A DNA stretch of 25,753 nt from IMG/VR virus record IMGVR_UViG_3300020020_000150, positions 1-25,753 of that record; one strand, written 5' to 3'. Numbering within the stretch: position 1 is the stretch's first letter; every line of letters starts with the position of its first letter. The notes beneath the pieces were generated by a model. That model did no database searches. It was not told the DNA's origin and worked only from the letters and a program-made list of their open reading frames with translations. A program made the position numbers and the translations under genes. Source of the stretch: a virus. Below, piece after piece: positions 3,109-21,977 of this stretch.

Positions 3109-4632
3109 CTAACTTCCTGTCCAGAGGCGTCGACGCATCCGCACGGGCGGGTCCGTATTGGGACCGGGTCCGGCGCCAGGGATGCTCAGTGCGACGTTGT
3201 CGCCCAGGTGGGCGTGAAGTGCATCCTGGATCGTCAGGTTGTGAACCTGCGTCAGGACGAGGTTGTCGCCCGCGTGGGCGTGGAGCGCGTCTGCGACCAC
3301 CAGGACGTGCGCCTGCGTGAGTGTCAGACTGTCGGCCGCGTGACCGTGAATGGCGTCCTGGATGACCAAGTCACCAGCGGACTCTTCCACCAGGACCAGG
3401 TTGTCCGCGGCGTGCGCGTGGAGCGCATCTTGGATCGCCAAGACGTGGACCTGAGTCAGCGTCACGTTGTCGCCGAGCTGGGCGTGGATCGCGTCCTGGA
3501 TCGCTAGCACATGGAGCTGTGTCAGCACCACATTGTCACCAAGGTGCGCGTGCAGGGCGTCAGCGATCGCCAGGATGTGGAGCTGGGTCAGGACGATGCC
3601 ATCGGTCGTGTGCGCGTGCAGCGCGTCCTGGATCGCCAGGTTGATGATCAGGGCGACGTTGTCGGCCGCTTGAGCGTGCAGTGCGTCGGCGACGGTCAGG
3701 AAGTGGTCCTGGGTCAGCGCGAGGTTGTCGGCGGCATGGCCGTGCGTCGCGTCCTGGATGACCAGGGTGACTTCAGACGAGGTGTCCAGTTCCAGGACAT
3801 AGGAAGCGTACTCCCCGGTGCTGGAGGAACCCCACGTAACTGTGGTGCCGGTGAACCCGCTGCTTCGAGCGGCGACCTCTGTGCGGCTGTCTGGGACGGT
3901 GATGACTTGCTCACCAACCGGAGCTTCCGATTCGATCCAGTTTGTGGGCGGAGTCCAGCCGACTGCCGTGCCCTCGTCATGAACACCAATGAGCACGGGG
4001 TTCTCGGCCAAAGCGGCTGCGGCGAGCGCAGTGGCTTGCGGAGTACCCGCGGCGTGGACGTCATCCTGCGCGTCCTGACGAACAGCAGCTGCGCCGATCT
4101 TGGTCATGCCGGACACACCGAACACGTACAGGTGGTTGCCCGACGTGTTGTCACCGGGATAGCTCACGGTGACGACGGTTCCGGTAGCTGTCGTGAGGGC
4201 GGTTTGCACCCAGACCGTCAGCCGTCCATTGTTGCCCAGCGTCTCGAAGACGACGTATCCGACTTGGTCCCAAGCGGCGGTGTTGCCGGTGCTCGTACAG
4301 GTCATCGTCGTGTCGGACGTACCTGTACCGAATGCGAAGACGACGAGCAGCTCGTTCGCCGGTGGGACGAAGCTGGCGGATGAAATGGGTCCGGCGCTAG
4401 TGGTGCTGCTTGCGGCCCTAAGAGTGGTCGAGGAGACGGTGATCGTCGGGACTTGCGCGTAGGCATCGAGGACTGCGCCAGCGGTGTCGTTCCACAGCCG
4501 AAGGTCGATGGTGTCACCGACTGCGACATCGGCAGACCTGATCTGAACGCAGTACTCGACTTCGGTTAGACCACCAACCCCGAGGTCCCAGCCGCCTGAT
4601 TCACCGTTGACCTCGTCGAAGCCTCCAGCCAC
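3109..4632 (-). CDS. Fibre/appendage-like protein, C-terminal part, with nine tandem His-rich repeats
   Basis: A 507-residue frame if begun at GTG 4632, but that start has no ribosome binding site. The reading frame continues upstream without interruption to the TGA at 4738-4740, in frame with the preceding gene, so this is probably the rest of a 641-residue protein. Three parts are visible. First, the end of a beta-rich domain (FVAGGFDEVNGE, YCVQIRSADVAVGDTIDLRL). Second, a roughly 200-residue beta-sandwich-like domain (FVPPANELLVVFAFGTG to YASYVLELD). Third, nine copies of a roughly 22-residue repeat with core IQDALHAHAADN followed by LTQ and H. Such repeat-tailed proteins are seen in phage appendage genes; host or glycan binding is inferred. 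The stop is TAG, 9 bases before the portal start. Confidence 0.7.
   Translation of the reverse strand: MAGGFDEVNGESGGWDLGVGGLTEVEYCVQIRSADVAVGDTIDLRLWNDTAGAVLDAYAQVPTITVSSTTLRAASSTTSAGPISSASFVPPANELLVVFAFGTGTSDTTMTCTSTGNTAAWDQVGYVVFETLGNNGRLTVWVQTALTTATGTVVTVSYPGDNTSGNHLYVFGVSGMTKIGAAAVRQDAQDDVHAAGTPQATALAAAALAENPVLIGVHDEGTAVGWTPPTNWIESEAPVGEQVITVPDSRTEVAARSSGFTGTTVTWGSSSTGEYASYVLELDTSSEVTLVIQDATHGHAADNLALTQDHFLTVADALHAQAADNVALIINLAIQDALHAHTTDGIVLTQLHILAIADALHAHLGDNVVLTQLHVLAIQDAIHAQLGDNVTLTQVHVLAIQDALHAHAADNLVLVEESAGDLVIQDAIHGHAADSLTLTQAHVLVVADALHAHAGDNLVLTQVHNLTIQDALHAHLGDNVALSIPGAGPGPNTDPPVRMRRRLWTGS
3175..3768 (-). repeat. Nine tandem ~66-bp coding repeats (22-residue units)
   Basis: Each unit encodes a variant of IQDALHAH, two variable residues, DN, two residues, LTQ, then H. 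The units are diverged at DNA level but keep the 66-base period; the second is about two residues short and the sixth about two residues longer. The limits are approximate. Conserved His, Asp and Asn at fixed spacing suggest one structural turn per unit or ion coordination; this is inference. Confidence 0.8.
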
Positions 4633-12911: not shown

Positions 12912-13748
12912 ATGACAGAATCGAGCACAAAGCGCGCCCCGAGCCTATCGGCTCATCTCGAACACGTTGGGCCAATCGACCCAGATGCCATGCCGTACTC
13001 AGAGGCACGCGCGATCTGGAGGATGTTCCGAGTGAAGCAAGGGTACGCAGACGCATACGCTCACATCCTGAGCGATCCTGACGCCAATGTGAAGATGGCG
13101 AAGGGGACGGAAACGATCCTAGGGCTTTCCCTCGCTCCTGCCGACATGGCGGGAACTTGGGACGCCTGCCAATGGCGGACCCCAGGATGCACGGCCGTAT
13201 GCGTGCTGGCGACAGCGGGCAAAGGTCCGATGGCGTCAGTCCGGAAAGCACGGGTGACGCGGACCCTATTCGCGGGGGAACACCCGCAGGCCTTCGTTAC
13301 CGTCGTGGTCGGTGAACTTCGGGACGCGGTGAAACGCTATGGCCCGATTGGATGGCGGCCGAACGTCGCGAGTGATCTCCGTTGGGAGCGGTTCGCGCCT
13401 GCCGCGCTCGCCATCCCTGGAGTGACGGTGTACGACTACACCAAGGCTCCGCTCCGCCACCGTGAAGGCGCCGGATACCGTCTGACGTTCTCGGTGTCCG
13501 AGCGGGAACAGTCGGTGGCCGAAGCCCTGGAGTACCTACGGGCAGGCGGAAACGCGGCCGTAGTGTTCGACACCGTGAAAGGTCACACACTGCCCGAGAC
13601 CTGGAACGGGTTCCCCGTGCTAGACGGGGACCTGACCGATTACCGACCGAACGACCCTCACGGCGCCGTCGTGGGACTTCGCGCCAAAGGATCGGCGCGC
13701 AACGGTGGAGATTCCACCGGATTCGTGAAGGAAGGGGTAGCCTCATGA
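12912..13748 (+). CDS. Gp88-family protein (phage gene product 88)
   Basis: 278 residues from ATG 12912, with the longest ribosome binding site in the window (GGAGGTGAT). The order of signatures fits the actinobacteriophage Gp88 family. ILGLSLAPADMAGTWDACQW comes first, then RTPGCTAVCVLATAGKG (Cys cluster), ASVRKARVTRTLFAGEHPQ, the block GWRPNVASDLRWERF, VTVYDYTKAPLRH, YRLTFSVSEREQ, and finally AVVGLRAKGSARNG plus DSTGFV. The biochemical role of Gp88 is not established; the layout hints at a nucleotide- or metal-dependent enzyme. It heads a rightward operon, probably early, driven by the TTGACA promoter, and overlaps the next gene by ATGA. Length is normal for the family. Confidence 0.8.
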   Translation: MTESSTKRAPSLSAHLEHVGPIDPDAMPYSEARAIWRMFRVKQGYADAYAHILSDPDANVKMAKGTETILGLSLAPADMAGTWDACQWRTPGCTAVCVLATAGKGPMASVRKARVTRTLFAGEHPQAFVTVVVGELRDAVKRYGPIGWRPNVASDLRWERFAPAALAIPGVTVYDYTKAPLRHREGAGYRLTFSVSEREQSVAEALEYLRAGGNAAVVFDTVKGHTLPETWNGFPVLDGDLTDYRPNDPHGAVVGLRAKGSARNGGDSTGFVKEGVAS

Positions 13749-13984
13749 CAACCGACGCACGGGGATACGTCAACGCGCGAGACGGGCAGGACGCATACCG
13801 AAAGCTGCTGGTCGACCTAGGGCTGAGGGATCGCGACCCGTTTGCTACCCTGCGGGACCCTGAGGGGCCGTTCGAGCGGGCGGAGACCGGCGAAGCGTGG
13901 GACGCATCCCTCGCCGAGCGGGACGCGGACGCGATCGACTACATCGGCGGGCGAGGGGACCGCTGCGCCGAGCCGAACCTGTAG
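13745..13984 (+). CDS. Hypothetical acidic protein
   Basis: 79 residues from ATG 13745, overlapping the Gp88 stop in an ATGA junction. The sequence is acidic and Asp/Arg/Ala rich (YVNARDGQDAYRKLLVDLG, EAWDASLAERDADAIDY), with no known motif. It is the last gene before a strong hairpin (13994-14031), so the transcript probably ends or is processed here. Confidence 0.65.
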   Translation: MTTDARGYVNARDGQDAYRKLLVDLGLRDRDPFATLRDPEGPFERAETGEAWDASLAERDADAIDYIGGRGDRCAEPNL

Positions 13985-13993
13985 GCTGCGAGT

Positions 13994-14031
13994 CTCCCCG
14001 AAGAATCCCCCAAATGGGGGATGTCGGGGAG
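13994..14031 (+). terminator. Two-tier hairpin after the Gp88 operon
   Basis: CTCCCCGA (13994-14001) pairs with TCGGGGAG (14024-14031). Inside it, ATCCCCCA (14005-14012) pairs with TGGGGGAT (14015-14022). There is no T-run after it, as is frequent in high-GC hosts. It could also be a processing or attenuation site. A short palindrome, AGGTTC-G-GAACCT (14030-14042), overlaps its end. Confidence 0.6.
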
Positions 14032-14531
14032 GTTCGGAACCTGTAGAGTCAGGTCAGGACATAGCACCCGCGGCGGCCGACGGCCCCGTAAGCCGGAACC
14101 CAGTGCGGCGGGCGCGCAGGACGAGACGAGGCGCCAGGCAATGCGGGCAAGGAACCCGGAAGGCTGGCGCCGGATCGACGAGCCAAACTCATCTCCCTCC
14201 CTGCGGCCGTTCAGGCCCCCGGAGGTGCCTTCACCCGCAGAGTACGGCGCAGGTGTTGGGTAGGCAGACCGCTACAAAGTACGCCGACCAGCCGGTGCCC
14301 CCATAGGGCCATCCCCGGCTGGGATCGCGCCGAAACGTCCGGCTCGCCTGCCACCACCCTATCGAGCGAGGTTCCCGCGCGCTCGTGAGCCCGAACGGTG
14401 TTGGGGAGCGAACGGGGAGCCAGGATAGGATCGCAAGCCCGAGAGAGCCGCGAAGCTGCAGCGACGCGGGGACGTACGGTGCGCGTGGTGTCCTGCCTGA
14501 ACGGCCACAAGGATGGAGATGGGAGGCAACA
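14032..14531 (+). ncRNA. Possible structured non-coding RNA or long leader
   Basis: About 500 bases with no supported gene on either strand. Several strong local stems are present: GGCC-GAC-GGCC (14075-14085); CCAGCCGG (14288-14295) with CCGGCTGG (14315-14322), enclosing GCCC-CCATA-GGGC; and CGAGCG (14363-14368) with CGCTCG (14380-14385). A TAGGAT at 14426-14431 could be a -10. It matches no RNA family I know (not RNase P, tmRNA or 6S by eye). The RNA call is inference. Confidence 0.3.
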
Positions 14532-14675
14532 ATGTACGGACAGCCGGACAAGTCGTTCGAGCAGTTCTGCCAAGAGCAAGACGAATGGACGAACCGTATC
14601 CGTGCCGAGCACGAGCGCCTTGGCGCAGCGTGCCCGTGCGGTAACGGCCGCGACGAGGACGACAAGACCCCGTAG
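14532..14675 (+). CDS. Small hypothetical protein with CxC
   Basis: 47 residues from ATG 14532, chosen for GGGAGG 6 bases upstream; a longer frame starting at 14385 has no such site. The protein is helical in the middle (FEQFCQEQDEWTNRIRAEH) and ends ACPCGNGRDEDDKTP, a small CPCG knuckle. Family not recognised. Confidence 0.6.
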   Translation: MYGQPDKSFEQFCQEQDEWTNRIRAEHERLGAACPCGNGRDEDDKTP

Positions 14676-14717
14676 GGGTTCGTTGCGCGTGATCCCTGGA
14701 CCCACGAGCCGGAATCG

Positions 14718-14783
14718 AGCCCCACCTCGGGGCTGCGCCGGTACAATCGCCCAGGAGTCGCGCGGAGCGGGAAACGCCCGCTC
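14718..14783 (+). promoter_or_regulatory. Leader hairpins and possible promoter before the DUF932 gene
   Basis: Hairpin AGCCCC-ACCTC-GGGGCT (14718-14734), then TACAAT (14742-14747) as a possible -10 without a clear -35, then hairpin GAGCGGG-AAACG-CCCGCTC (14765-14783). ACAGGGAGGTG follows as ribosome binding site. The arrangement of hairpin followed by AGGGAGGTG recalls the repeated element at 15851 and 16373. Confidence 0.45.
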
Positions 14784-14800
14784 ACAGGGAGGTGCGTACC

Positions 14801-15853
14801 ATGTCACAGGAGACTAGCGAGTGGCTGAACACGCTCGTGCTGGTCGGGTTCACCGACAAGCGCGGCAACGCGTGGCACCACGATCTGGCACTCCAGAATG
14901 GACGCCCGAACCACTACGCTGGCGCAATCCCGGTCGGCGACGTGATCGAGCGGCTGTTCAACTTCGAGGTGCAATCGGTCCCGTTGTTCGTCCAGGCAAA
15001 GCTGGGCGACCTCGTGCTCGACTACCACCAGCTGCCCGATCGCCAAGCGATGCAGGCAGGCCCCGGCGCACCGTTCCCGGGCGAGGTGTTCGGCATTTTC
15101 AAGGACGGGTACCAGGGCCACGCCTACTCGGAGTGGCTGCTCGACAATGCCGAGCGGATCATGGGTGACGGGCTGGACATCGGCTCGGCAGGCTTGCTCC
15201 GCAAGGGCGCGCAGGCGTGGGTGCAGTACGAGTTGGACGAGAGCCGCAACGTGCTTGGAGTCAGCTTCCGCCCGTACCTGCTCGCGTACACGTCGTACGA
15301 CGGTTCCCTCGCAACCGGCTACAAGCTGGGCGCGAAGGTCGCGGTGTGCGATAACACGTTCGAGATCGCCCGTTCGGCCAAGGATGGGAACAGCTTCAAA
15401 CTCAAGCACACCCGCAACTCGGGGAGCAAGGTCCTGGAGGCCCGCGAGGCTCTGGGCGTGCTGTTCGAGACTGGTGATTCGATGGAGGCCGAGATCACAC
15501 GGCTGATCGAGACCGAGGTCACCCGGGCACAGTTCAACGCCCTGGTCGACCGCATGGTGCCGTTGCCCGCCAAGGATGGCACCGGCAAGGTCCCGGAAGG
15601 CCGCTCGCTCACCATCGCGGTCAACAAGCGGGACGCGCTGCAGGGCCTGTACGCGAATGACAACCGGGTCGCACCGTGGGCCGGGACTGCGTGGGGCGCC
15701 CTCCAGGCGTTCAACACCTTCGGGCACCACGTCGCCACGGTGAAGGGCGCGAGCCGCTCACAGCGGATTCGCTCCAACGCCATCGACGGCACCCAGGCCA
15801 AGGCTGACGCCGAGGTCCTGGAGGCGCTGGAGGGGGTGCTTGTCACCGTCTGA
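14801..15853 (+). CDS. DUF932 / phage-plasmid-like protein (TIGR03299 type)
   Basis: 350 residues from ATG 14801, preferred over GTG 14792 because GGGAGG stands 8 bases ahead. The N-terminal TDKRGNAWHHDLALQNGRP, AIPVGDVIERLFNFEVQ, and the central GFRP-like SFRPYLLAYTSYDGSLATGYKL are DUF932 features, split here as SFRPYLLAYTSYDGS then LATGYKLGAKVAVCDNTF. The block FKLKHTRNSGSKVLEAREAL and the C-terminal NTFGHHVATVKGASRSQR complete the family layout. Members are common in phages and plasmids and resemble Gp60-like proteins; their reaction is not established. Length is typical. It ends exactly at the start of the first covarying hairpin element. Confidence 0.85.
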   Translation: MSQETSEWLNTLVLVGFTDKRGNAWHHDLALQNGRPNHYAGAIPVGDVIERLFNFEVQSVPLFVQAKLGDLVLDYHQLPDRQAMQAGPGAPFPGEVFGIFKDGYQGHAYSEWLLDNAERIMGDGLDIGSAGLLRKGAQAWVQYELDESRNVLGVSFRPYLLAYTSYDGSLATGYKLGAKVAVCDNTFEIARSAKDGNSFKLKHTRNSGSKVLEAREALGVLFETGDSMEAEITRLIETEVTRAQFNALVDRMVPLPAKDGTGKVPEGRSLTIAVNKRDALQGLYANDNRVAPWAGTAWGALQAFNTFGHHVATVKGASRSQRIRSNAIDGTQAKADAEVLEALEGVLVTV

Positions 15854-15922
15854 CGCTGCGTCTCGCCCCCTCAGGGGGCGGGGCGGAACGGCAGAGAGCC
15901 GATTCCAGGGAGGTGAGGCAGC
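15851..15922 (+). ncRNA. Repeated intergenic two-hairpin RNA element, copy 1
   Basis: It begins in the stop codon of the DUF932 gene with TGACGCTGCGTCT, itself an inverted repeat GACGC-T-GCGTC. Hairpin 1 is CGCCCCC-TCA-GGGGGCG (15864-15880), followed by GGGC. Hairpin 2 is GGAA CGGC, loop AGAGA, GCCG, bulged A, TTCC (15885-15906). It ends in AGGGAGGTGAGGCA just before the ATG at 15923. The same plan is kept in copy 2 with different stem bases. Confidence 0.7.
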
Positions 15923-16375
15923 ATGACCCCGAAGGGGATGCGCCTGGAGGCGCAGGCTCTACGCAAGCAGGCCACACGCCTGTCCGATAGGGCCGACGAG
16001 TTGGAGCAGGATGCCGACGACATCGAGGGCGGCATCGTGGTCCAGGTCGTGTTCGAGCACGCATCGGGCACCGTATCGAGCCCGTACGCGTACCTCACGG
16101 GCGACCTGCCCGTGCGGGTGGGCGACGACGTGCTCGTGCCGGGTGCTGGCTACCGCAAGCAGCCCTCGATCGCACGGGTCGTCGGCGTCGGGCGTGGTGG
16201 CTACACGGGCCCGCTGAAGAAGCTGGTCGGCCTGGTCATCACGGAGGACGCCCGCACCGTGTTCGACGACTTCCGCGAGAGCCGCGAGGACAAAGGTCTG
16301 GGCACCTGCCCGGACTGCGGCTACGCGTACATCGACTCGGAGATGGCGGTTCCGTGCGGAGGTACCATGTCCTGA
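15923..16375 (+). CDS. Hypothetical protein with coiled coil and zinc-knuckle-like end
   Basis: 150 residues from ATG 15923, with a GGGAGGTGAGG binding site. Residues 1-35 are a charged coiled coil (RLEAQALRKQATRLSDRADE). A beta-rich middle follows (GTVSSPYAYLTGDLPVRVGD, GAGYRKQPSIARVVGVGRGG). The C-terminus is TCPDCGYAYIDSEMAVPCGG, a three-Cys knuckle. The middle has the feel of a small SH3/Tudor-like barrel. Family not recognised. It is framed by the two copies of the covarying RNA element. Confidence 0.65.
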   Translation: MTPKGMRLEAQALRKQATRLSDRADELEQDADDIEGGIVVQVVFEHASGTVSSPYAYLTGDLPVRVGDDVLVPGAGYRKQPSIARVVGVGRGGYTGPLKKLVGLVITEDARTVFDDFRESREDKGLGTCPDCGYAYIDSEMAVPCGGTMS

Positions 16376-16451
16376 CGCTGCGTCTGGTTGTCATATCCCA
16401 TGACAACCGGGCGGATCGCCAGAGCGGCGAATCCAGGGAGGTGAGGCAACC
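16373..16451 (+). ncRNA. Repeated intergenic two-hairpin RNA element, copy 2
   Basis: It starts at the stop codon with the same TGACGCTGCGTCT. Hairpin 1 is GGTTGTCAT-ATCCC-ATGACAACC (16386-16408), unrelated in sequence to copy 1 but equally perfect. GGGC follows, then hairpin 2: GGAT CGCC, loop AGAGC, GGCG, bulged A, ATCC (16413-16434), with compensatory base changes relative to copy 1. It ends AGGGAGGTGAGGCA before ATG 16452. Confidence 0.7.
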
Positions 16452-16559
16452 ATGTCTGACCCACTGGGCCCCGCGAGGGGCATCATGCTGGGCGTGGTGC
16501 TGGGTGTCTGCCTGTACGTGTTGGCGGCGCTCATCGGATGGGGGATCGTGGCGCTATGA
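16452..16559 (+). CDS. Small single-span membrane protein (35 aa)
   Basis: A 35-residue gene from ATG 16452, with GGGAGGTGAGG 6 bases or so upstream. The short polar N-terminus (MSDPLGPARG) is followed by one long hydrophobic helix (IMLGVVLGVCLYVLAALIGW) to the C-terminus. The stop TGA overlaps the next ATG (ATGA). Tiny membrane proteins in phages can act in lysis control, superinfection exclusion or host membrane effects; nothing here decides among them. Confidence 0.65.
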   Translation: MSDPLGPARGIMLGVVLGVCLYVLAALIGWGIVAL

Positions 16560-16786
16560 CCTGGTCCCGAGGGTACATCGAGTTGGAGTGCGGCCATCGG
16601 ATCGGGACCGCCGCGTGGGACACCACGCTCGTCGGCGACGACCTGCGGTGCCCGCAGTGCAAGGCGGCCAGGCCAGTCAAGGTCATGAGTCGCGTTCAAG
16701 AGGTCACCGGTTCGCGCGACTTCCAGCTGGGGGTGACCCATGCTGATGACGTACGAACGGATGACGCAGCTCCTGCAGGCTCGTGA
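16556..16786 (+). CDS. Small zinc-ribbon-like protein
   Basis: 76 residues from ATG 16556 in an ATGA overlap with the membrane protein. The first half forms a small ribbon: YIELECGHRIGTAAWD, then GDDLRCPQCKAARP, giving C-x2-H ... C-x2-C. This pattern is common in actinobacteriophage proteins. The remainder is unstructured-looking and acidic. It overlaps the next gene by 47 bases. Confidence 0.65.
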   Translation: MTWSRGYIELECGHRIGTAAWDTTLVGDDLRCPQCKAARPVKVMSRVQEVTGSRDFQLGVTHADDVRTDDAAPAGS

Positions 16787-16952
16787 CTTCCTGGGCCTGA
16801 ACCACGAGCTGAACGCTCACCCGGAGCGGTTCCCGTCGTGGGCCTTCGCGGCCCCGGTGGTCCGGCCGTACCGGGCGGGCGAGTTCGAGTGGCACGAGAT
16901 GGCCCGCAACGACTGGCAGGCCCTGAGGCAGTTTAGGGAGGCACACGGATGA
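16740..16952 (+). CDS. Hypothetical protein
   Basis: 70 residues from ATG 16740 (GGGGGTG upstream); ATG 16746 is an alternative. It is mostly helical (TYERMTQLLQARDFLGLNHE) with a Trp-rich second half (PERFPSWAFAAPVVRPYRAG). It overlaps the preceding gene by 47 bases and the next by 4. No motif is recognised. Confidence 0.6.
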   Translation: MLMTYERMTQLLQARDFLGLNHELNAHPERFPSWAFAAPVVRPYRAGEFEWHEMARNDWQALRQFREAHG

Positions 16953-17302
16953 ACAGGGAGGATGAGCTGACGCTCCTGATCGAGGAGCAGAAGAGAGACG
17001 ACGACCACTACCAACGCCCGGAGATGCACACGGTGCCGTTCGGCAACTTGCTAGAAGTGATGGACGACAACGGCCGTCTGCGAGAGCTGGTGCGAAAGGA
17101 ATGGGAACAGGGCTGTACGCTCCACGGGACACTCAGCCTACGCCCGGACCCAACACGAGGTGCCCCGGTCTGCAGGGTGTGCGACCGGGAGCGGAAGAAG
17201 CGAGACAGGCGAACGAACGGCGAATGGATGCGGGCGCAGGATCGAGCCCGCTACCCGCTCCGGAAGAGGAAGGCCGAGCGGGAGAAAGCGAGGGCGCGAT
17301 GA
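16949..17302 (+). CDS. Hypothetical basic Cys protein, last gene of rightward operon
   Basis: 117 residues from ATG 16949 in an ATGA overlap, with GGGAGG 10 bases before. The N-terminus is acidic and helical (NREDELTLLIEEQKRDDDHY). The centre carries CTLHG ... VCRVCDRERKKRDRR, a Cys/His group resembling a zinc-binding module or a truncated HNH-type framework, though no HNH catalytic His pair is visible. The C-terminus is highly basic (YPLRKRKAEREKARAR), suggesting nucleic acid binding. The operon terminator begins 4 bases after its stop. Confidence 0.65.
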   Translation: MNREDELTLLIEEQKRDDDHYQRPEMHTVPFGNLLEVMDDNGRLRELVRKEWEQGCTLHGTLSLRPDPTRGAPVCRVCDRERKKRDRRTNGEWMRAQDRARYPLRKRKAEREKARAR

Positions 17303-17305
17303 GCG

Positions 17306-17337
17306 AAGCCCCCCAGGCCCGTCGGCTTGGGGGGCTT
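17306..17337. terminator. Bidirectional terminator between convergent operons
   Basis: AAGCCCCCCA (17306-17315) pairs perfectly with TGGGGGGCTT (17328-17337), with a 12-base loop that can pair further (GCC/GGC). T-rich ends on both strands (TTTCG on plus; the AA of the left arm on minus) fit termination of the rightward and leftward operons that meet here. Confidence 0.8.
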
Positions 17338-17363
17338 TCGCGTTACCGGGGCGGTCTGCCACC

Positions 17364-17564
17364 CTACGTAGCAGAGGTCCCTCTCCCCAGCCATCGCTCG
17401 TGCGCCGCGCGTAGCGCCTCGCGACGTTCCTCGTTAGCAGTCTGATTCAGTTCAACCGCCTGCTCGACCGAGTGGCGCCGGTCGCACCCCTGGGGGCACG
17501 CGGACCCGTCGCCGGTGTGCCACGAGCCCCAGCCGCTGCCTCCCCACCCGCGCTTGGTCTTCAC
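17364..17564 (-). CDS. Small hypothetical Cys protein
   Basis: 66 residues from GTG 17564 (MKTKRGWGGSGWGSWHTGDG), with GGAGG 4 bases upstream and a GTGA overlap with the preceding gene; the longer frame to 17825 is shadow. It contains SACPQGCDRRHSVEQAVELN and a basic helical tail (ANEERREALRAAHERW). It is the last gene of the leftward metabolism operon. Family not recognised. Confidence 0.65.
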   Translation of the reverse strand: MKTKRGWGGSGWGSWHTGDGSACPQGCDRRHSVEQAVELNQTANEERREALRAAHERWLGRGTSAT

Positions 17565-17845
17565 AGGTCCTCCAGCTGTCGGTGGAAGTCGATCACGTCG
17601 TCGAGTGTGAACGGCGGGGCGTTGACGTCGAACAACTCGGGATGCTTGGGGCCATCGTCGGCCCACACCACACCCGCGCCGAGCAGCAGGCCCACGATCT
17701 TCTTGTCGGCGGCCTTCACGATGAAGTCGCCGCACGACGGGCAGACGAACGTGTACTCCTGCCGATCCTTGCGGAGCAGCCTGATCTGGGGCGGCTCCAT
17801 GTCGACCTCCCCGCACCGCGGGCACGCAGACCGGATGGTGGTCAC
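17561..17845 (-). CDS. Zinc-ribbon protein
   Basis: 94 residues from GTG 17845 (MTTIRSACPRCGEVDM), which forms a GTGA overlap with the protease gene; GTG 17854 is possible but less natural. Two knuckles, CPRCG and VCPSCGDFIVKAAD, about 24 residues apart, form a classical four-Cys zinc ribbon. A C-terminal region (KIVGLLLGAGVVWADDGPKH, FTLDDVIDFHRQLEDL) follows. This layout recurs in actinobacteriophages. The role is unknown; nucleic-acid or protein binding is likely. Confidence 0.7.
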   Translation of the reverse strand: MTTIRSACPRCGEVDMEPPQIRLLRKDRQEYTFVCPSCGDFIVKAADKKIVGLLLGAGVVWADDGPKHPELFDVNAPPFTLDDVIDFHRQLEDL

Positions 17846-18384
17846 AGGTACCACTCCCTCACAGAATCCAGGTCATGCACGTTGGGCTTCATGGCGCCAG
17901 ACATGATGCCGTTGCTGCCATGCCCCAGGCCCAGGCAGTGCCCGACCTCGTGGCACACGGTGCGATCCCAGGCGTACGTCGGCGAGCCCATCTTCTCGGA
18001 GGTCCGAAGGCGTTCGAGGTGGAACCACGCGATCGAGCCCTCGTTGTACCACGGCGAGGCCCACGCTGTCGGGTACCACTTCGGCGCGGGCGGCGTGTAC
18101 ACGGAGCGACCGAGGGTGATGGCGCCCGGCGTGATGGGCTGAACACCCTCGCTGCTGGACGCAGGCCAGTCCGGCTCACCGAGCCCGACGAACGTGGCCG
18201 GGGGCAGAATCTCATTCACGGCAAGCACGAGACCTGTCGGTTCCCACATGGCGAGCCCCGCGTCCCGGTGACGACGCCAGCGCCGCAACCTGCGGCCTTT
18301 CAGCGATCCAGCCACACGGTCGAATACAAGGATGCGGGGGACGAGCGGGTATGAGGGCGAGTAGTAGCTTCCGGGTCCGTGCAT
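17842..18384 (-). CDS. Metzincin-like zinc metalloprotease
   Basis: 180 residues from ATG 18384, sharing one base with the stop of the nucleotidase gene (TGATG). The active-site helix CHEVGHCLGLGH is the full HExxHxxGxxH zinc motif, and NGIMSGAM supplies the Met-turn, so this is a metzincin (matrixin-like). Upstream are a basic segment (GSLKGRRLRRWRRHRDAG) and a beta-rich N-lobe (PITPGAITLGRSVYTPP, SIAWFHLERLRTSE). No signal peptide is seen, so it would act inside the cell unless exported otherwise. Metzincins of this kind occur in some actinobacteriophages; targets are unknown. The call to the protease fold is firm; the role is not. Confidence 0.8.
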   Translation of the reverse strand: MHGPGSYYSPSYPLVPRILVFDRVAGSLKGRRLRRWRRHRDAGLAMWEPTGLVLAVNEILPPATFVGLGEPDWPASSSEGVQPITPGAITLGRSVYTPPAPKWYPTAWASPWYNEGSIAWFHLERLRTSEKMGSPTYAWDRTVCHEVGHCLGLGHGSNGIMSGAMKPNVHDLDSVREWYL

Positions 18385-18932
18385 CACAGCCTCCCCAGCT
18401 GATACTCCAAGGTGTCCCAGTCCGCACCGACGTTGTTGTTCCAGTCGGCCGCGAACTGAATGCCGATGCGGCCCACGAGGCGCGCGTCGTCGATGTTGTG
18501 CGGGCTGTCGTCGACCAAGACGTCCCACTCCACGCTGCTCTTGGGCTCCCCCTGCGACAGGATGCTGACGCCGGACCACGGGTACGGGTCTTCCTTGCCG
18601 AAGTGGAAGTCGATCCACGCCAGTGTGTCCTGTACCGCGTTGGCCGGTCGGTGGGTCACGATGATGAGGTCGTACCCGGCGGCCTTGAGCGAGCGGACTC
18701 CGAGCATGGCGCCTGTGATGACGTGGCCGTGGCGGAACAGACCCTGACGGACGCCCTCGTCGAAGAGCCAGTTGTACGCCTCCTGTCCGACCTGGTCGGC
18801 GACCACCCACTCGCGGAAGGGCACGGTCAGGTCGTACCCGTCGCACCAGCCCTTGTACACGTTCCGGAGCAGGTAGCGCGCGGTGCGCTGCCAGCTGTAC
18901 AGGACCTCGTCGCAGTCGAGCGCGACCCTCAC
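18384..18932 (-). CDS. 5'(3')-deoxyribonucleotidase-like HAD phosphatase
   Basis: 182 residues from GTG 18932 (MRVALDCDEVLYSW) in a GTGA overlap with the small membrane protein. HAD motifs are in order: motif I ALDCDEVLYSW (DxD nucleophile and acid), motif II LIIVTHRP (Thr), and motif IV WDVLVDDSPHNIDD (acidic pair). Length and motif spacing fit the NT5C-type deoxyribonucleotidases that dephosphorylate dNMPs. In phages they adjust the dNTP pool or remove unwanted nucleotides. A dNMP kinase is encoded two genes upstream, supporting a role in nucleotide balance. HAD membership is firm; the substrate is inferred. Confidence 0.8.
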   Translation of the reverse strand: MRVALDCDEVLYSWQRTARYLLRNVYKGWCDGYDLTVPFREWVVADQVGQEAYNWLFDEGVRQGLFRHGHVITGAMLGVRSLKAAGYDLIIVTHRPANAVQDTLAWIDFHFGKEDPYPWSGVSILSQGEPKSSVEWDVLVDDSPHNIDDARLVGRIGIQFAADWNNNVGADWDTLEYQLGRL

Positions 18933-19036
18933 TCGCCCACCCCCAACGTCTTGCCGACAAGCACGAGCGTCGAGTACCCGAACACCCAGAAGAAGACGAT
19001 GAACAGCATGATCGCGGCCCTCGTGGATTCCTTCAT
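18929..19036 (-). CDS. Small single-span membrane protein (35 aa)
   Basis: 35 residues from ATG 19036, with GGAGG 8 bases upstream, ATGA overlap with the endonuclease VII gene and GTGA overlap with the nucleotidase gene. After MKESTRAA there is one hydrophobic helix (IMLFIVFFWVFGYSTLVLVG) and a short tail. Its length matches the membrane protein at 16452 exactly, without clear sequence likeness. The function is not recognisable. Confidence 0.65.
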   Translation of the reverse strand: MKESTRAAIMLFIVFFWVFGYSTLVLVGKTLGVGE

Positions 19037-19419
19037 CGTGGCGGCCTCCTCATCTCATAGTTCTTCAGGAAGTAGAGGACGTTGGCTGCGCGTTCGATGC
19101 TGATCCCTCGTCCGAGATACGCGTGGTTGGCGTACCATGACACGAGCCCGCGGACGTACTTCTTCCGTTCATCGGGGGGCAGCTTCTCCCACCCGGGGAC
19201 ATGCTCGTGGTCGATCACAAACCGGCCAGTGCTGGGCGTCACGCCCATGATCGGGCAGACCCAGCTCTGCTCGTCAAGCATGATCAGCCAGTCGAGCGCG
19301 GTGAGCCCGTACTTCTTCAACGTGGCCTGCGTCGGGACCTTGATCCCCAGCGACGCGGCCTTCTCGTCGAGCAGCGTGGCTCCTGTTGCGGTGCGGCGTG
19401 GGTCCTCCGCCCGAGCCAT
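19033..19419 (-). CDS. Endonuclease VII-like HNH protein with lost zinc cysteines
   Basis: 128 residues from ATG 19419, overlapping the dNMP kinase stop (ATGA). The core QSWVCPIMGVTPSTGRFVID, continuing with HEHVPGWEKL, then YVRGLVSWYANHAYLGRG, follows recombination endonuclease VII, which resolves branched DNA before packaging. The DHEH catalytic segment and the Asn of the final helix are kept. The zinc-binding CxxC pairs of the family are not: the first is CPIM and the second (usually LCxxCN) is VSWYAN. It may fold without zinc or be a diverged form. Genomic context with nuclease and polymerase genes fits DNA processing. Confidence 0.75.
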   Translation of the reverse strand: MARAEDPRRTATGATLLDEKAASLGIKVPTQATLKKYGLTALDWLIMLDEQSWVCPIMGVTPSTGRFVIDHEHVPGWEKLPPDERKKYVRGLVSWYANHAYLGRGISIERAANVLYFLKNYEMRRPPR

Positions 19420-20102
19420 CAGGAGTCCGCCAGCGCGTCGAGCGCCTCGCGGTTGTCCTCGCGGGCCTTCTCCAGGAACCGGGTGACGATCGCCGCCCGA
19501 TTCTTGATCCCGCGGAACGCGATCTCCCGGAACTCAGCCGCGGACGGCGCTGCGTTGATGAACGTGAACTCGGCTCCGCGCAGCAGGATCGGGATGTCAC
19601 GCTCACTCGCATGCGTGCCGTTGGCTCCGAGCCCGTTGTCGAAGTCCGGCCGCTCGACGCCCCACACCTCGCCGTGCATGCGCCGGATGAACTCGGCCTC
19701 GTTCGTGAACCGCACGTCCGGGATCACGATCTTCCGCTCGTTCCCGTAGAAGCCCTTGGTGCCCTTCGCGAGCGCCTCGATCCAGACATCCTGCCCCAGG
19801 CCCTCGCGGCCGACCTCGGTGCCGAAGACCTGCAGCAAGCGGCGCACCTCGGCGTATTCCTTCGCCCCCTCCCAGCCGACGTGCTCCACCAGCTTCGACA
19901 GTCGCACCTCGTCGAACTCGTTCACCCCCCGCACGACTCGATGCACGATGTCGACCCTCGGGTCGAGCACGAGCATCAGCTCTTTCATCCTGTCGGCGAG
20001 CGCCACGCGGCTGTACCCCAGCTCCCGCGTGAGCACCGCCGCGACCGTGTCCTTGCCGTGCCGGGCGTACCCGGTGATTCCGATGATCCGAGGCAACCCC
20101 AT
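19419..20102 (-). CDS. Deoxynucleoside monophosphate kinase
   Basis: 227 residues from ATG 20102, immediately after the TAG of the upstream gene (TAGATG). The N-terminal P-loop is IGITGYARHGKDTVAAVL (GxxxxGKDT), with an acceptor-side region (YSRVALADRMKELMLVLD) and the lid/core motif RRLLQVFGTEVGREGLGQ followed by DVWIEALAK. A strand with IVIPDVRFTNEAEFIRR is next. This order matches phage dNMP kinases (T4 gp1-like), which convert dNMPs to dNDPs for DNA synthesis, in the cytoplasm. Length is normal. It is paired in the operon with a deoxyribonucleotidase. Confidence 0.9.
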   Translation of the reverse strand: MGLPRIIGITGYARHGKDTVAAVLTRELGYSRVALADRMKELMLVLDPRVDIVHRVVRGVNEFDEVRLSKLVEHVGWEGAKEYAEVRRLLQVFGTEVGREGLGQDVWIEALAKGTKGFYGNERKIVIPDVRFTNEAEFIRRMHGEVWGVERPDFDNGLGANGTHASERDIPILLRGAEFTFINAAPSAAEFREIAFRGIKNRAAIVTRFLEKAREDNREALDALADS

Positions 20103-20321
20103 CTACAGCTCCTTCCGCTCCACGACGTTCGCCAGCGGGATGTTCGTGATGGCCCGCCAGCCTTCCCTGCTCGGCAGCCGCTCGCTCCGGACCCGGAGGA
20201 ACCGGCCCTTCGTGTTCGTCCATCCGACCGTCTGCACGAGGTAGTCCTTGCGCGGCTTGTCGGGTGTGTCCTGGTCGAAGTATGCGTCCCTCCAGGTCAC
20301 CAGCTCCAGACGAGGCTTCAC
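20103..20321 (-). CDS. Hypothetical protein
   Basis: 72 residues from GTG 20321 in a GTGA overlap, with GGGGAGGAA upstream. The sequence (MKPRLELVTWRDAYFDQ, VGWTNTKGRFLRVRSERL) is beta-rich and basic, without a known motif. It stands between a tiny acidic gene and the dNMP kinase and is probably co-translated with both. Confidence 0.65.
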   Translation of the reverse strand: MKPRLELVTWRDAYFDQDTPDKPRKDYLVQTVGWTNTKGRFLRVRSERLPSREGWRAITNIPLANVVERKEL

Positions 20322-20401
20322 AGCTGTTCCTCCCCGTCTGGGATGTCGGGCGGCAGACCGCCGCGGGAGTCGTCGGCCGGGAAGTCTTCAGGCTCGATCA
20401 C
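20318..20401 (-). CDS. Tiny acidic protein (27 aa)
   Basis: 27 residues from GTG 20401, overlapping the nuclease stop (GTGA) and ending in a GTGA overlap with the next gene. The sequence is acidic and Pro/Asp-rich (MIEPEDFPADDSRGG, PPDIPDGEEQL). Its last codons form the ribosome binding site of the next gene. A GTGA junction at both ends suggests it is translated, but it could also be just a coupling spacer. Confidence 0.5.
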   Translation of the reverse strand: MIEPEDFPADDSRGGLPPDIPDGEEQL

Positions 20402-21216
20402 TTCGGCCCCCATGCCTGCCGCATCTTGTACAGCTCCCAGAATGGGAGGGCGGCGCTGCTCGGGAGGAACCGGTCGTCCTGTACCTCGTAGTACAGGCCC
20501 GTTTCCTCGTCGGGTGTGTCATGCGCGATCACGATCCGCTGCTTGGCGCACTCCCAGTCCGGGTCCATCTGCTCGGCAGCCAGCCCGTACATCGCCATCT
20601 GCATCCACTCCGAGAAGCGGTAGCCAGGGACGTGGGTCTTCAAGTCGTCGATCTGATCCTCAGGCCAGAAGACGTCGCACGTCCCGCTGAATCCGTGGGT
20701 GCAGCGCCCCTGCTTGTCGTGGTCGGTGCAGTCGTCAATCGGGTGCTCGGTCCAGTACAGCCGCTTCTCGGTCTCCGGCTTCGCCCCGCCGAGTAGCACC
20801 GGCTGGTACACCCCGAAGTACGCCTCGACGACGCCGCGGTCGAACCCCGCAGCGATGAGTTTCATTTCGCCGTCGTCGATCCAGAAGTCGTCTCCGTCTG
20901 GTGAAGCGAACGCCGTGACGGTGCCCTCCAACAGCTGCTGGAACAGCGTGTGAGAGGCCGTGCCCTCTTTCCCCCTGCGGCGCAACGTCTTGTTGGGATC
21001 GAAGTCGGACGCCTTCCATGCGTCATAGTGCTCCATCCACTCCGCCTCGGAGTCACCGAGCCACCGCGCGAACTGCTTCCCCCCGTAGTAGGCCATGGCG
21101 CTCTTGCCGTCGCCGAGGACCCAGTCGAGGGCCGTCGTGACCCGAGTCAGCTTCGCGGCGTTCCCGGCGTCGGTGGTGATCTGGTAGAAGCCGCGCTTCT
21201 GCTCGATCTTGGTCAC
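20398..21216 (-). CDS. RecB/Cas4-like PD-(D/E)XK nuclease
   Basis: 272 residues from GTG 21216 (MTKIEQKRGFYQITT) in a GTGA overlap; the in-frame extension to 21315 lies in the coiled-coil gene and is rejected. The family order is visible: an N-terminal LTRVTTALDWVLGDGKSAMA, a helix with GTASHTLFQQLLEG (catalytic His), a glutamate-bearing strand before KRLYWTEH, then GFSGTCDVFWPEDQIDDLKT holding the PD-(D/E)XK Asp and D-x-K, and the closing helix FSEWMQMAMYGLAAEQ. The Cys at CTDHDK, GRCTHG and CDVF could carry an iron-sulfur cluster as in Cas4, but this is not certain. It probably degrades or processes DNA ends during replication and recombination. Confidence 0.8.
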   Translation of the reverse strand: MTKIEQKRGFYQITTDAGNAAKLTRVTTALDWVLGDGKSAMAYYGGKQFARWLGDSEAEWMEHYDAWKASDFDPNKTLRRRGKEGTASHTLFQQLLEGTVTAFASPDGDDFWIDDGEMKLIAAGFDRGVVEAYFGVYQPVLLGGAKPETEKRLYWTEHPIDDCTDHDKQGRCTHGFSGTCDVFWPEDQIDDLKTHVPGYRFSEWMQMAMYGLAAEQMDPDWECAKQRIVIAHDTPDEETGLYYEVQDDRFLPSSAALPFWELYKMRQAWGPK

Positions 21217-21977
21217 GCTGTCCCGCTCTCGACTCGCCGCTCCAGGATCATCCGGTCGTATTCCGACTTGACGAAGACGTACCGGCCCTTCCACTTCTCG
21301 ACCTCGACTTTCCACGTTGCCGCCCTAGTAGCCAGGCGTTGCCACTCTGCAGTGCGCGCGAGGAATGCCTCGTGCAGCAGGGCGTTCTCGTCCTTGAGGG
21401 CGACATACTCACTGGGGGTTGGAGGGACGCCATCCTTCCACGCCCTCCAGGACTCCAGCTCCGCCTGGGTATCTTGCAGCCTCTCGACCTCGCGTTGCTG
21501 TTCCTCAGCCTGCACCTGAAGGTCCACGTTCAGGTCCGTCTGCACTTGCAGCAGTCCTCGCAGCTTCTCGACCTCTTCGGCGTGAATCCACCCGATGTCT
21601 TCGCCGTACCCGTTCAACTGGGCAACGTCCGACCGCAGCTTCTCGTTCTCGGCTTGCGCTTGACCGTAGAGCTGTTGGAAGCGGTCTCGTTCGGCCCGCA
21701 GCCTCTCGACCTCGTCAACCAGGCGGTTTTTCTCGGCGAACAGCTCGTTCCAGCGCGTACCCTTCGTTACCTCGTACAACTCTTCCCGCAGCCTCTCGAC
21801 CTCGGCCCCTAACTCACCCATCGTGTTCAGTCGGTGTTGCGCTTCGTTCTTGTAGCCGATGAGTTCGGCTTCGAGGCGGTCGAGGGCGGCAAGCGTGTTG
21901 TCCAACGTACCGTGCCCGCCATGCGGCCACTCAGCCTTCATCAACTGCTGCCGAATCATCTCGATGTAGTCGTTCAT
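21213..21977 (-). CDS. Long coiled-coil protein (paralogue 1)
   Basis: 254 residues from ATG 21977 in an ATGA overlap with its upstream paralogue. Nearly the whole protein is coiled coil (NRLVDEVERLRAERDRFQQL, EEQQREVERLQDTQAELESW). It begins MNDYIEMIRQQL and has TLDNTLAALDRLEAELI in the region that in the neighbour reads PHAALDHLEAEL. The two share the plan of a short N-terminal head then coiled coil, so they look like a tandem duplication. No enzyme motif is seen; scaffold or DNA-organising roles are possible. Confidence 0.7.
   Translation of the reverse strand: MNDYIEMIRQQLMKAEWPHGGHGTLDNTLAALDRLEAELIGYKNEAQHRLNTMGELGAEVERLREELYEVTKGTRWNELFAEKNRLVDEVERLRAERDRFQQLYGQAQAENEKLRSDVAQLNGYGEDIGWIHAEEVEKLRGLLQVQTDLNVDLQVQAEEQQREVERLQDTQAELESWRAWKDGVPPTPSEYVALKDENALLHEAFLARTAEWQRLATRAATWKVEVEKWKGRYVFVKSEYDRMILERRVESGTA

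Follow-up and report, generated by a model that had tools for sequence, protein, structure and literature searches.

Why should a phage operon whose genes mostly touch or overlap keep two gaps that begin and end with the same letters and have diverged in the middle? The window analysed here spans a whole IMG/VR record (25,753 bp, 65% G+C) from an unclassified phage, whose proteins include an SU10-type portal and a terminase; the open frame at its right end resembles, by its sequence, a family-A DNA polymerase. The nearest relatives of its DUF932 and GP88 proteins are in actinophages and those of its portal in podoviruses of other hosts; the host is probably an actinobacterium.

Two gaps in a packed operon

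The rightward operon extends over roughly 12912-17302, and the exceptions to its tight packing are the gaps 15854-15922 and 16376-16451. Each gap, together with the preceding stop codon, constitutes one copy of a repeated element, here called copies A and B. Three genes adjoin them:

14801-15853, plus strand: DUF932 gene, upstream of copy A (Pfam PF06067, E 5e-35; phrog_1221)
15923-16375, plus strand: 150-aa ORF with copies on both sides; a distant relative lies in record L014 (38% over 83 residues)
16452-16559, plus strand: 35-aa membrane-type ORF downstream of copy B, with one hydrophobic segment

The 150-aa ORF had no Pfam or PHROG match, and a family search with the 35-aa ORF gave no significant family. 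At 17303-17340, 3' of the last gene of the operon, the sequence AAGCCCCCCAGGCCCGTCGGCTTGGGGGGCTTT is terminator-like by eye; the consensus terminator scan did not list it.

The first-pass annotation had described both stretches as running exactly from stop codon to start codon with a common beginning and end, and the sequence bears this out: copy A opens on the DUF932 stop codon, TGA (15851-15853), copy B on that of the 150-aa ORF (16373-16375), and both terminal segments are identical between the copies. In each, the order from 5' to 3' is TGACGCTG, hairpin 1, hairpin 2, AGGGAGGTGAGGCA and the start codon:

15851-15922, plus strand: copy A, from the DUF932 stop codon to the base preceding the ATG at 15923
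15851-15863, plus strand: conserved 5' segment TGACGCTGCGTCT of copy A, same letters as 16373-16385, including the TGA and a palindrome
15860-15884, plus strand: hairpin 1 of copy A, 11 bp, with base GUCU/GGGC and a variable apical stem of 7 bp, CGCCCCC-UCA-GGGGGCG
15885-15906, plus strand: hairpin 2 of copy A, GGAA CGGC AGAGA GCCG A UUCC, 8 bp with a bulged A
15907-15920, plus strand: conserved 3' segment AGGGAGGTGAGGCA of copy A, same as 16435-16448, carrying the Shine-Dalgarno (SD) sequence of the 150-aa ORF
16373-16451, plus strand: copy B, from the 150-aa ORF's own stop codon to the base preceding the ATG at 16452
16373-16385, plus strand: conserved 5' segment TGACGCTGCGTCT of copy B
16382-16412, plus strand: hairpin 1 of copy B, 13 bp, with base GUCU/GGGC and a variable apical stem of 9 bp, GGUUGUCAU-AUCCC-AUGACAACC
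16413-16434, plus strand: hairpin 2 of copy B, GGAU CGCC AGAGC GGCG A AUCC, 8 bp, with two compensatory changes relative to copy A
16435-16448, plus strand: conserved 3' segment AGGGAGGTGAGGCA of copy B, carrying the SD of the 35-aa ORF

The 5' segment holds an 11-nt palindrome, GACGC T GCGTC (15852-15862 and 16374-16384), that is identical in the two copies and has no other occurrence in the window. Hairpin 1 had been described as a perfect stem of 7 or 9 bp with unrelated sequence in the two copies; the perfect stems and their unrelatedness stand, whereas the length is extended to 11 and 13 bp by folding, which pairs a conserved GUCU with a conserved GGGC (G-C, U-G, C-G, U-G) at the base. 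Hairpin 2 has a five-base loop, follows hairpin 1 without a linker and ends directly at the SD, and the two hairpins may thus stack end on end. An outer helix closing copy A (GCUGC/GCAGC) was rejected, being missing from copy B.

Pairing in the two copies against chance

Judged by their shared ends of 13 nt (5') and 14 nt (3'), copies A and B are plainly homologous. Across hairpin 2 they differ at 5 of 22 positions, comprising two complete pairs (A-U to U-A and G-C to C-G) and one loop base, while the AGAG of the loop and the bulged A are kept, as the first-pass annotation had observed. In simulations placing five random substitutions in this hairpin, 7e-4 of the trials kept the stem Watson-Crick throughout and contained two double changes. 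The flanks show 0 differences in 32 positions against the 5/22 of hairpin 2 (p 0.008). The hairpin-1 inserts have no common sequence and are each paired end to end, an outcome that shuffled inserts reach with frequencies of 2e-3 (A, 7 bp) and 5e-6 (B, 9 bp). At its conserved base, hairpin 1 never varies between the copies and so yields no evidence of covariation.

On the sense strand the cores fold with z-scores of -4.6 (A, 48 nt) and -5.9 (B, 54 nt), and none of the shuffles was as good; for the whole elements the values are -3.8 (A) and -2.9 (B). A hairpin abutting the SD arises in shuffled sequence with a frequency of 0.003 (A) and 0.010 (B). The idea that the structure presents an open SD was set aside as inconsistent between the copies, the unpaired probability being 0.95 in A and 0.29 in B (the latter computed with the start one base off). 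Neither copy holds a promoter- or terminator-like site by pattern and consensus scans, nor a -10 hexamer inside the repeat, and Rfam gave no match above the gathering score anywhere in the window.

The first-pass annotation read the compensated changes as the sign of selection on RNA structure. The simulations, shuffles and fold scores within the two copies argue for this, as does the analogy described below, and the material within the window consists of two paralogues. Two copies offer no phylogenetic test of covariation, and template switching is able to make perfect hairpins in one step; we therefore regard selection on RNA pairing in A and B as likely rather than shown.

Relatives and parallels in other phages

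The first-pass annotation had proposed looking for more copies with a covariance model. Pattern and covariance-model searches revealed no true third copy in the window, which may be a fragment, and neither three DNA-pattern scans of IMG/VR nor blastn against phages returned one; the IMG/VR pattern matches lie mostly within genes or lack the hairpin and were put down to chance. A Cluster J mycophage match to hairpin 2 is antisense to the adjoining genes and was likewise judged a chance hit. The covariance model of hairpin 2 gave nothing above noise in ten records, nine of them protein relatives, or in 28 further loci. Failure to find further copies in related genomes had been named as grounds for abandoning the structure; searches with the terminase and portal turned up no close relative of this phage, and those grounds do not fairly apply. 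The relatives of the DUF932 protein are at most 49% identical, so the element's absence from them says little.

The region 14718-14792 had been put forward as a looser relative of the two copies. Its similarity is weak (14.7 bits, E 0.1) and comes mostly from the SD, and the region looks instead like a promoter leader:

14739-14800, plus strand: leader C before DUF932, with a promoter-like TACAAT, then a hairpin at 14765-14783, then AGGGAGGTG

Its hairpin (7 bp, GAGCGGG-AAACG-CCCGCTC) stands two bases 5' of the SD. Leader C is apparently a promoter leader with an SD-abutting hairpin, related to A and B in design but not demonstrably by descent. The repeated intergenic regions of the Cluster DR phage CaiB, which infects Gordonia, have the same GAGCGGG/CCCGCTC stem as leader C and, like A and B, a five-base-loop hairpin directly before a conserved SD (PMC9302106); unlike A and B, they include a promoter-like hexamer. 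A group of soil viral contigs (the L046 group) also carries the leader C stem after a promoter-like hexamer, although these contigs were retrieved with that stem as the query and only CaiB is an independent case. In the leaders of CaiB, the soil contigs and leader C the hairpin lies between promoter and SD, as expected of a 5' roadblock.

A numerically stronger parallel in layout was found in the Ronaldovirus phages of Gordonia (Guey18, Ronaldo, Fryberger, Ziko and Volt), whose leaders we describe here from their records; a literature search found no paper on them.

17434-21894 of record L040, and the same region in L041, L042 and L043, minus strand: Ronaldovirus operon-internal leaders

Ten gaps, 74-86 nt long, interrupt the leftward operon of Guey18, and every one of them contains a stop codon, hairpin 1, hairpin 2 and an SD of the GAGAGAGGAAAG type; most of these gaps recur in Ronaldo, Fryberger and Ziko. 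Hairpin 2 has a loop of 5-6 nt, and the stems of both hairpins differ freely between gaps yet remain paired. In the Watson-Crick helices of these leaders G-T mismatches outnumber A-C mismatches by 17 to 1, in counts that are not fully independent as they include orthologous copies; such an excess would be expected if it is the sense RNA that folds. The leaders share with A and B their position in operon-internal gaps and the succession of stop, two hairpins, conserved SD and start, but have no sequence in common with them. A and B also agree with them in having, between stop codon and SD, two hairpins whose stems are unrelated between copies, with the reservation that in hairpin 2 the change from A to B is confined to two pairs. 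The loops of the Ronaldovirus leaders are not conserved.

The Ronaldovirus leaders also show a feature of their own, in that 5-10 nt in the hairpin-2 loop region match, by complementarity, a segment spanning the upstream stop codon in 11/11 leaders examined. In a permutation test 0 of 50,000 permutations reached the observed complementarity (p < 2e-5), an effect that is large, with loops picked by eye and the test made post hoc. The complementarity often extends into the arms of the hairpin-2 stem, so the stop-to-loop and stem pairings would be mutually exclusive, suggesting a switch rather than a pseudoknot.

Several gaps in other actinophages drew attention on their own account. The gap after DUF932 in the Rhodococcus phages REQ1 (L036:3557-3650) and Madraxi (L034:3569-3657) folds like a shortened tRNA, with an acceptor-like GCCCTG/CAGGGC and a T-arm-like hairpin. 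Rhodococcus phage Trogglehumper has CACTCACCGA...GGGAG repeats before start codons (L037:2407-2501, 3571-3660, 4037-4085 and 831-937), in which CUC/CC could pair with the SD. In Microbacterium phage Shotgun (L039:1884-1967) the sequence around the stop codon, TGACTGCCGCC, is complementary to GGCGGAGGTCA, within which the next SD lies, a possible case of translational coupling.

Function and place among known repeats

The first-pass annotation had listed processing, translation control and protein binding as candidate functions. We favour, at a probability of roughly 45%, the reading of A and B as cis-acting RNA leaders inside the operon that separate cistrons of one mRNA and shield or present the next ribosome-binding site. 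Hairpin 1 would form just 3' of the upstream stop codon, and hairpin 2 would stack on it and end at the SD of the next gene, so that every small gene would become a unit of its own on a shared mRNA. The RNA may be cleaved in or near the hairpins, leaving the upstream message with a 3' end protected by hairpin 1 and the downstream one with hairpin 2 as a 5' roadblock ahead of its ribosome-binding site; hairpin 2 would also keep upstream sequence off that site. We infer RNA processing at A and B, with stability or independent initiation as the trait under selection. The leaders compared here have a common design, an SD-adjacent hairpin that comes after a promoter in some and after a second, cistron-boundary hairpin in others, and their simplest common function would be to set a 5' barrier in front of the ribosome-binding site, while hairpin 1, where present, closes off the message upstream. 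Counting against the cistron-separating reading are the two copies on one contig and the lack of any relative found with the element.

The Ronaldovirus complementarity raises the alternative that the ribosome finishing the upstream gene sits over the stop region and thereby determines whether hairpin 2 can form beside the next SD, coupling the two genes. Copy A could accommodate this by pairing the conserved UCUC with the loop GAGA, and copy B by pairing UCU with AGA; however, no consistent stop-to-loop pairing is found across the two, and their stop segment is invariant and offers no covariation, so we hold such a termination switch to be unlikely here. It is rather unlikely, too, that A and B are members of a broader class of cistron-boundary RNAs in phages that sense translation termination, as the complementarity in all examined Ronaldovirus leaders would suggest, with the ribosome at the upstream stop controlling the SD-side hairpin. 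The retention of AGAG and the bulged A while stem pairs change is what protein-binding stem-loops usually show, and a phage or host protein on hairpin 2 could control both downstream genes; against this stand the number of copies, two, the want of a candidate protein and the unconserved Ronaldovirus loops, which leave protein binding an outside candidate on a par with the switch.

Three further explanations give the hairpins a lesser or different role. The copies flank exactly one gene, itself without a known family, and their ends are identical around a diverged middle, as might be left by a gap duplicated when the 150-aa gene was inserted, with the shared ends as the exchange point and the hairpins incidental or template-switched; this recombination history gives no reason for both hairpins to have remained paired through the observed changes, and we consider it distinctly doubtful. 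The palindrome GACGC T GCGTC, confined in the window to A and B, could bind a regulator dimer, as proposed for the extended start-associated sequences (ESAS) of Cluster K phages, whose repeats were judged likelier to be DNA-binding sites (PMC3203893); such a DNA-level site would leave the paired hairpins unexplained, and with only two sites and no promoter beside them it seems very unlikely. The strong hairpin 1 directly after the stop codon also recalls a partial terminator or attenuator, by which expression would fall stepwise from gene to gene. The scarcely credible standing of this last account follows from the missing U-rich tail and terminator call at both copies and from the consideration that the hairpin pair, if efficient and followed by no promoter, would silence the rest of the operon.

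Start-associated repeats have been described before and are a mixed kind (PMC3203893, PMC7302621, PMC9302106, PMC9753669), reported in several actinophage clusters without an established role (PMC3203893, PMC7302621). The start-associated sequences (SAS) and ESAS described in mycobacteriophages of Cluster K and Microbacterium phages of Cluster EF resemble A and B in their conserved SD region and long upstream gaps (PMC3203893, PMC7302621), and in the inverted-repeat or poorly conserved part immediately 5' of the SD region. A and B accord with the broad actinophage kind in being stop-to-start repeats with an unusually conserved SD region, but not in copy number, as that kind has many copies across a genome (11-19 SAS copies in Cluster K) and the window two. 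The 13-bp Cluster K motif GGGATAGGAGCCC by the start codon is absent from A and B, which carry AGGGAGGTGAGGCA instead. Nor do they have the 17-bp inverted repeats of conserved consensus that mark Cluster K, hairpin 1 being without common sequence: the Cluster K inverted repeats keep their sequence, and A and B keep the pairing while the sequence changes. The repeats of Cluster DJ were rejected as relatives because they appear to be promoters with TATAAT; in Burley, a phage of that cluster (L064:13402-20225), the published start-associated repeats carry both TTACAC and TATAAT and have the look of promoters.

For the proposed processing, the available comparisons are bacterial. RNase J, a 5'-3' exonuclease, occurs in actinobacteria and is documented in Streptomyces, whose RNase III cuts the intergenic rpsO-pnp hairpin (PMC10126417), which like A and B lies between cistrons of one mRNA, processing being only proposed for the latter; in Bacillus, 5' roadblocks stabilise mRNA (PMC3997798). 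If the element does separate cistrons or couple translation, it would explain how small, swappable phage genes can be strung into one transcript. In the best-described case of start-associated repeats, that of Cluster K, RNA pairing was argued against, since the changes among the ESAS do not support it (PMC3203893). Sense-strand changes that preserve pairing, here and more strongly in Ronaldovirus, mean that a repeat so far anonymous can be tested as an RNA device, and by their sequence A and B appear to differ from the described repeats in being paired RNA without a promoter.
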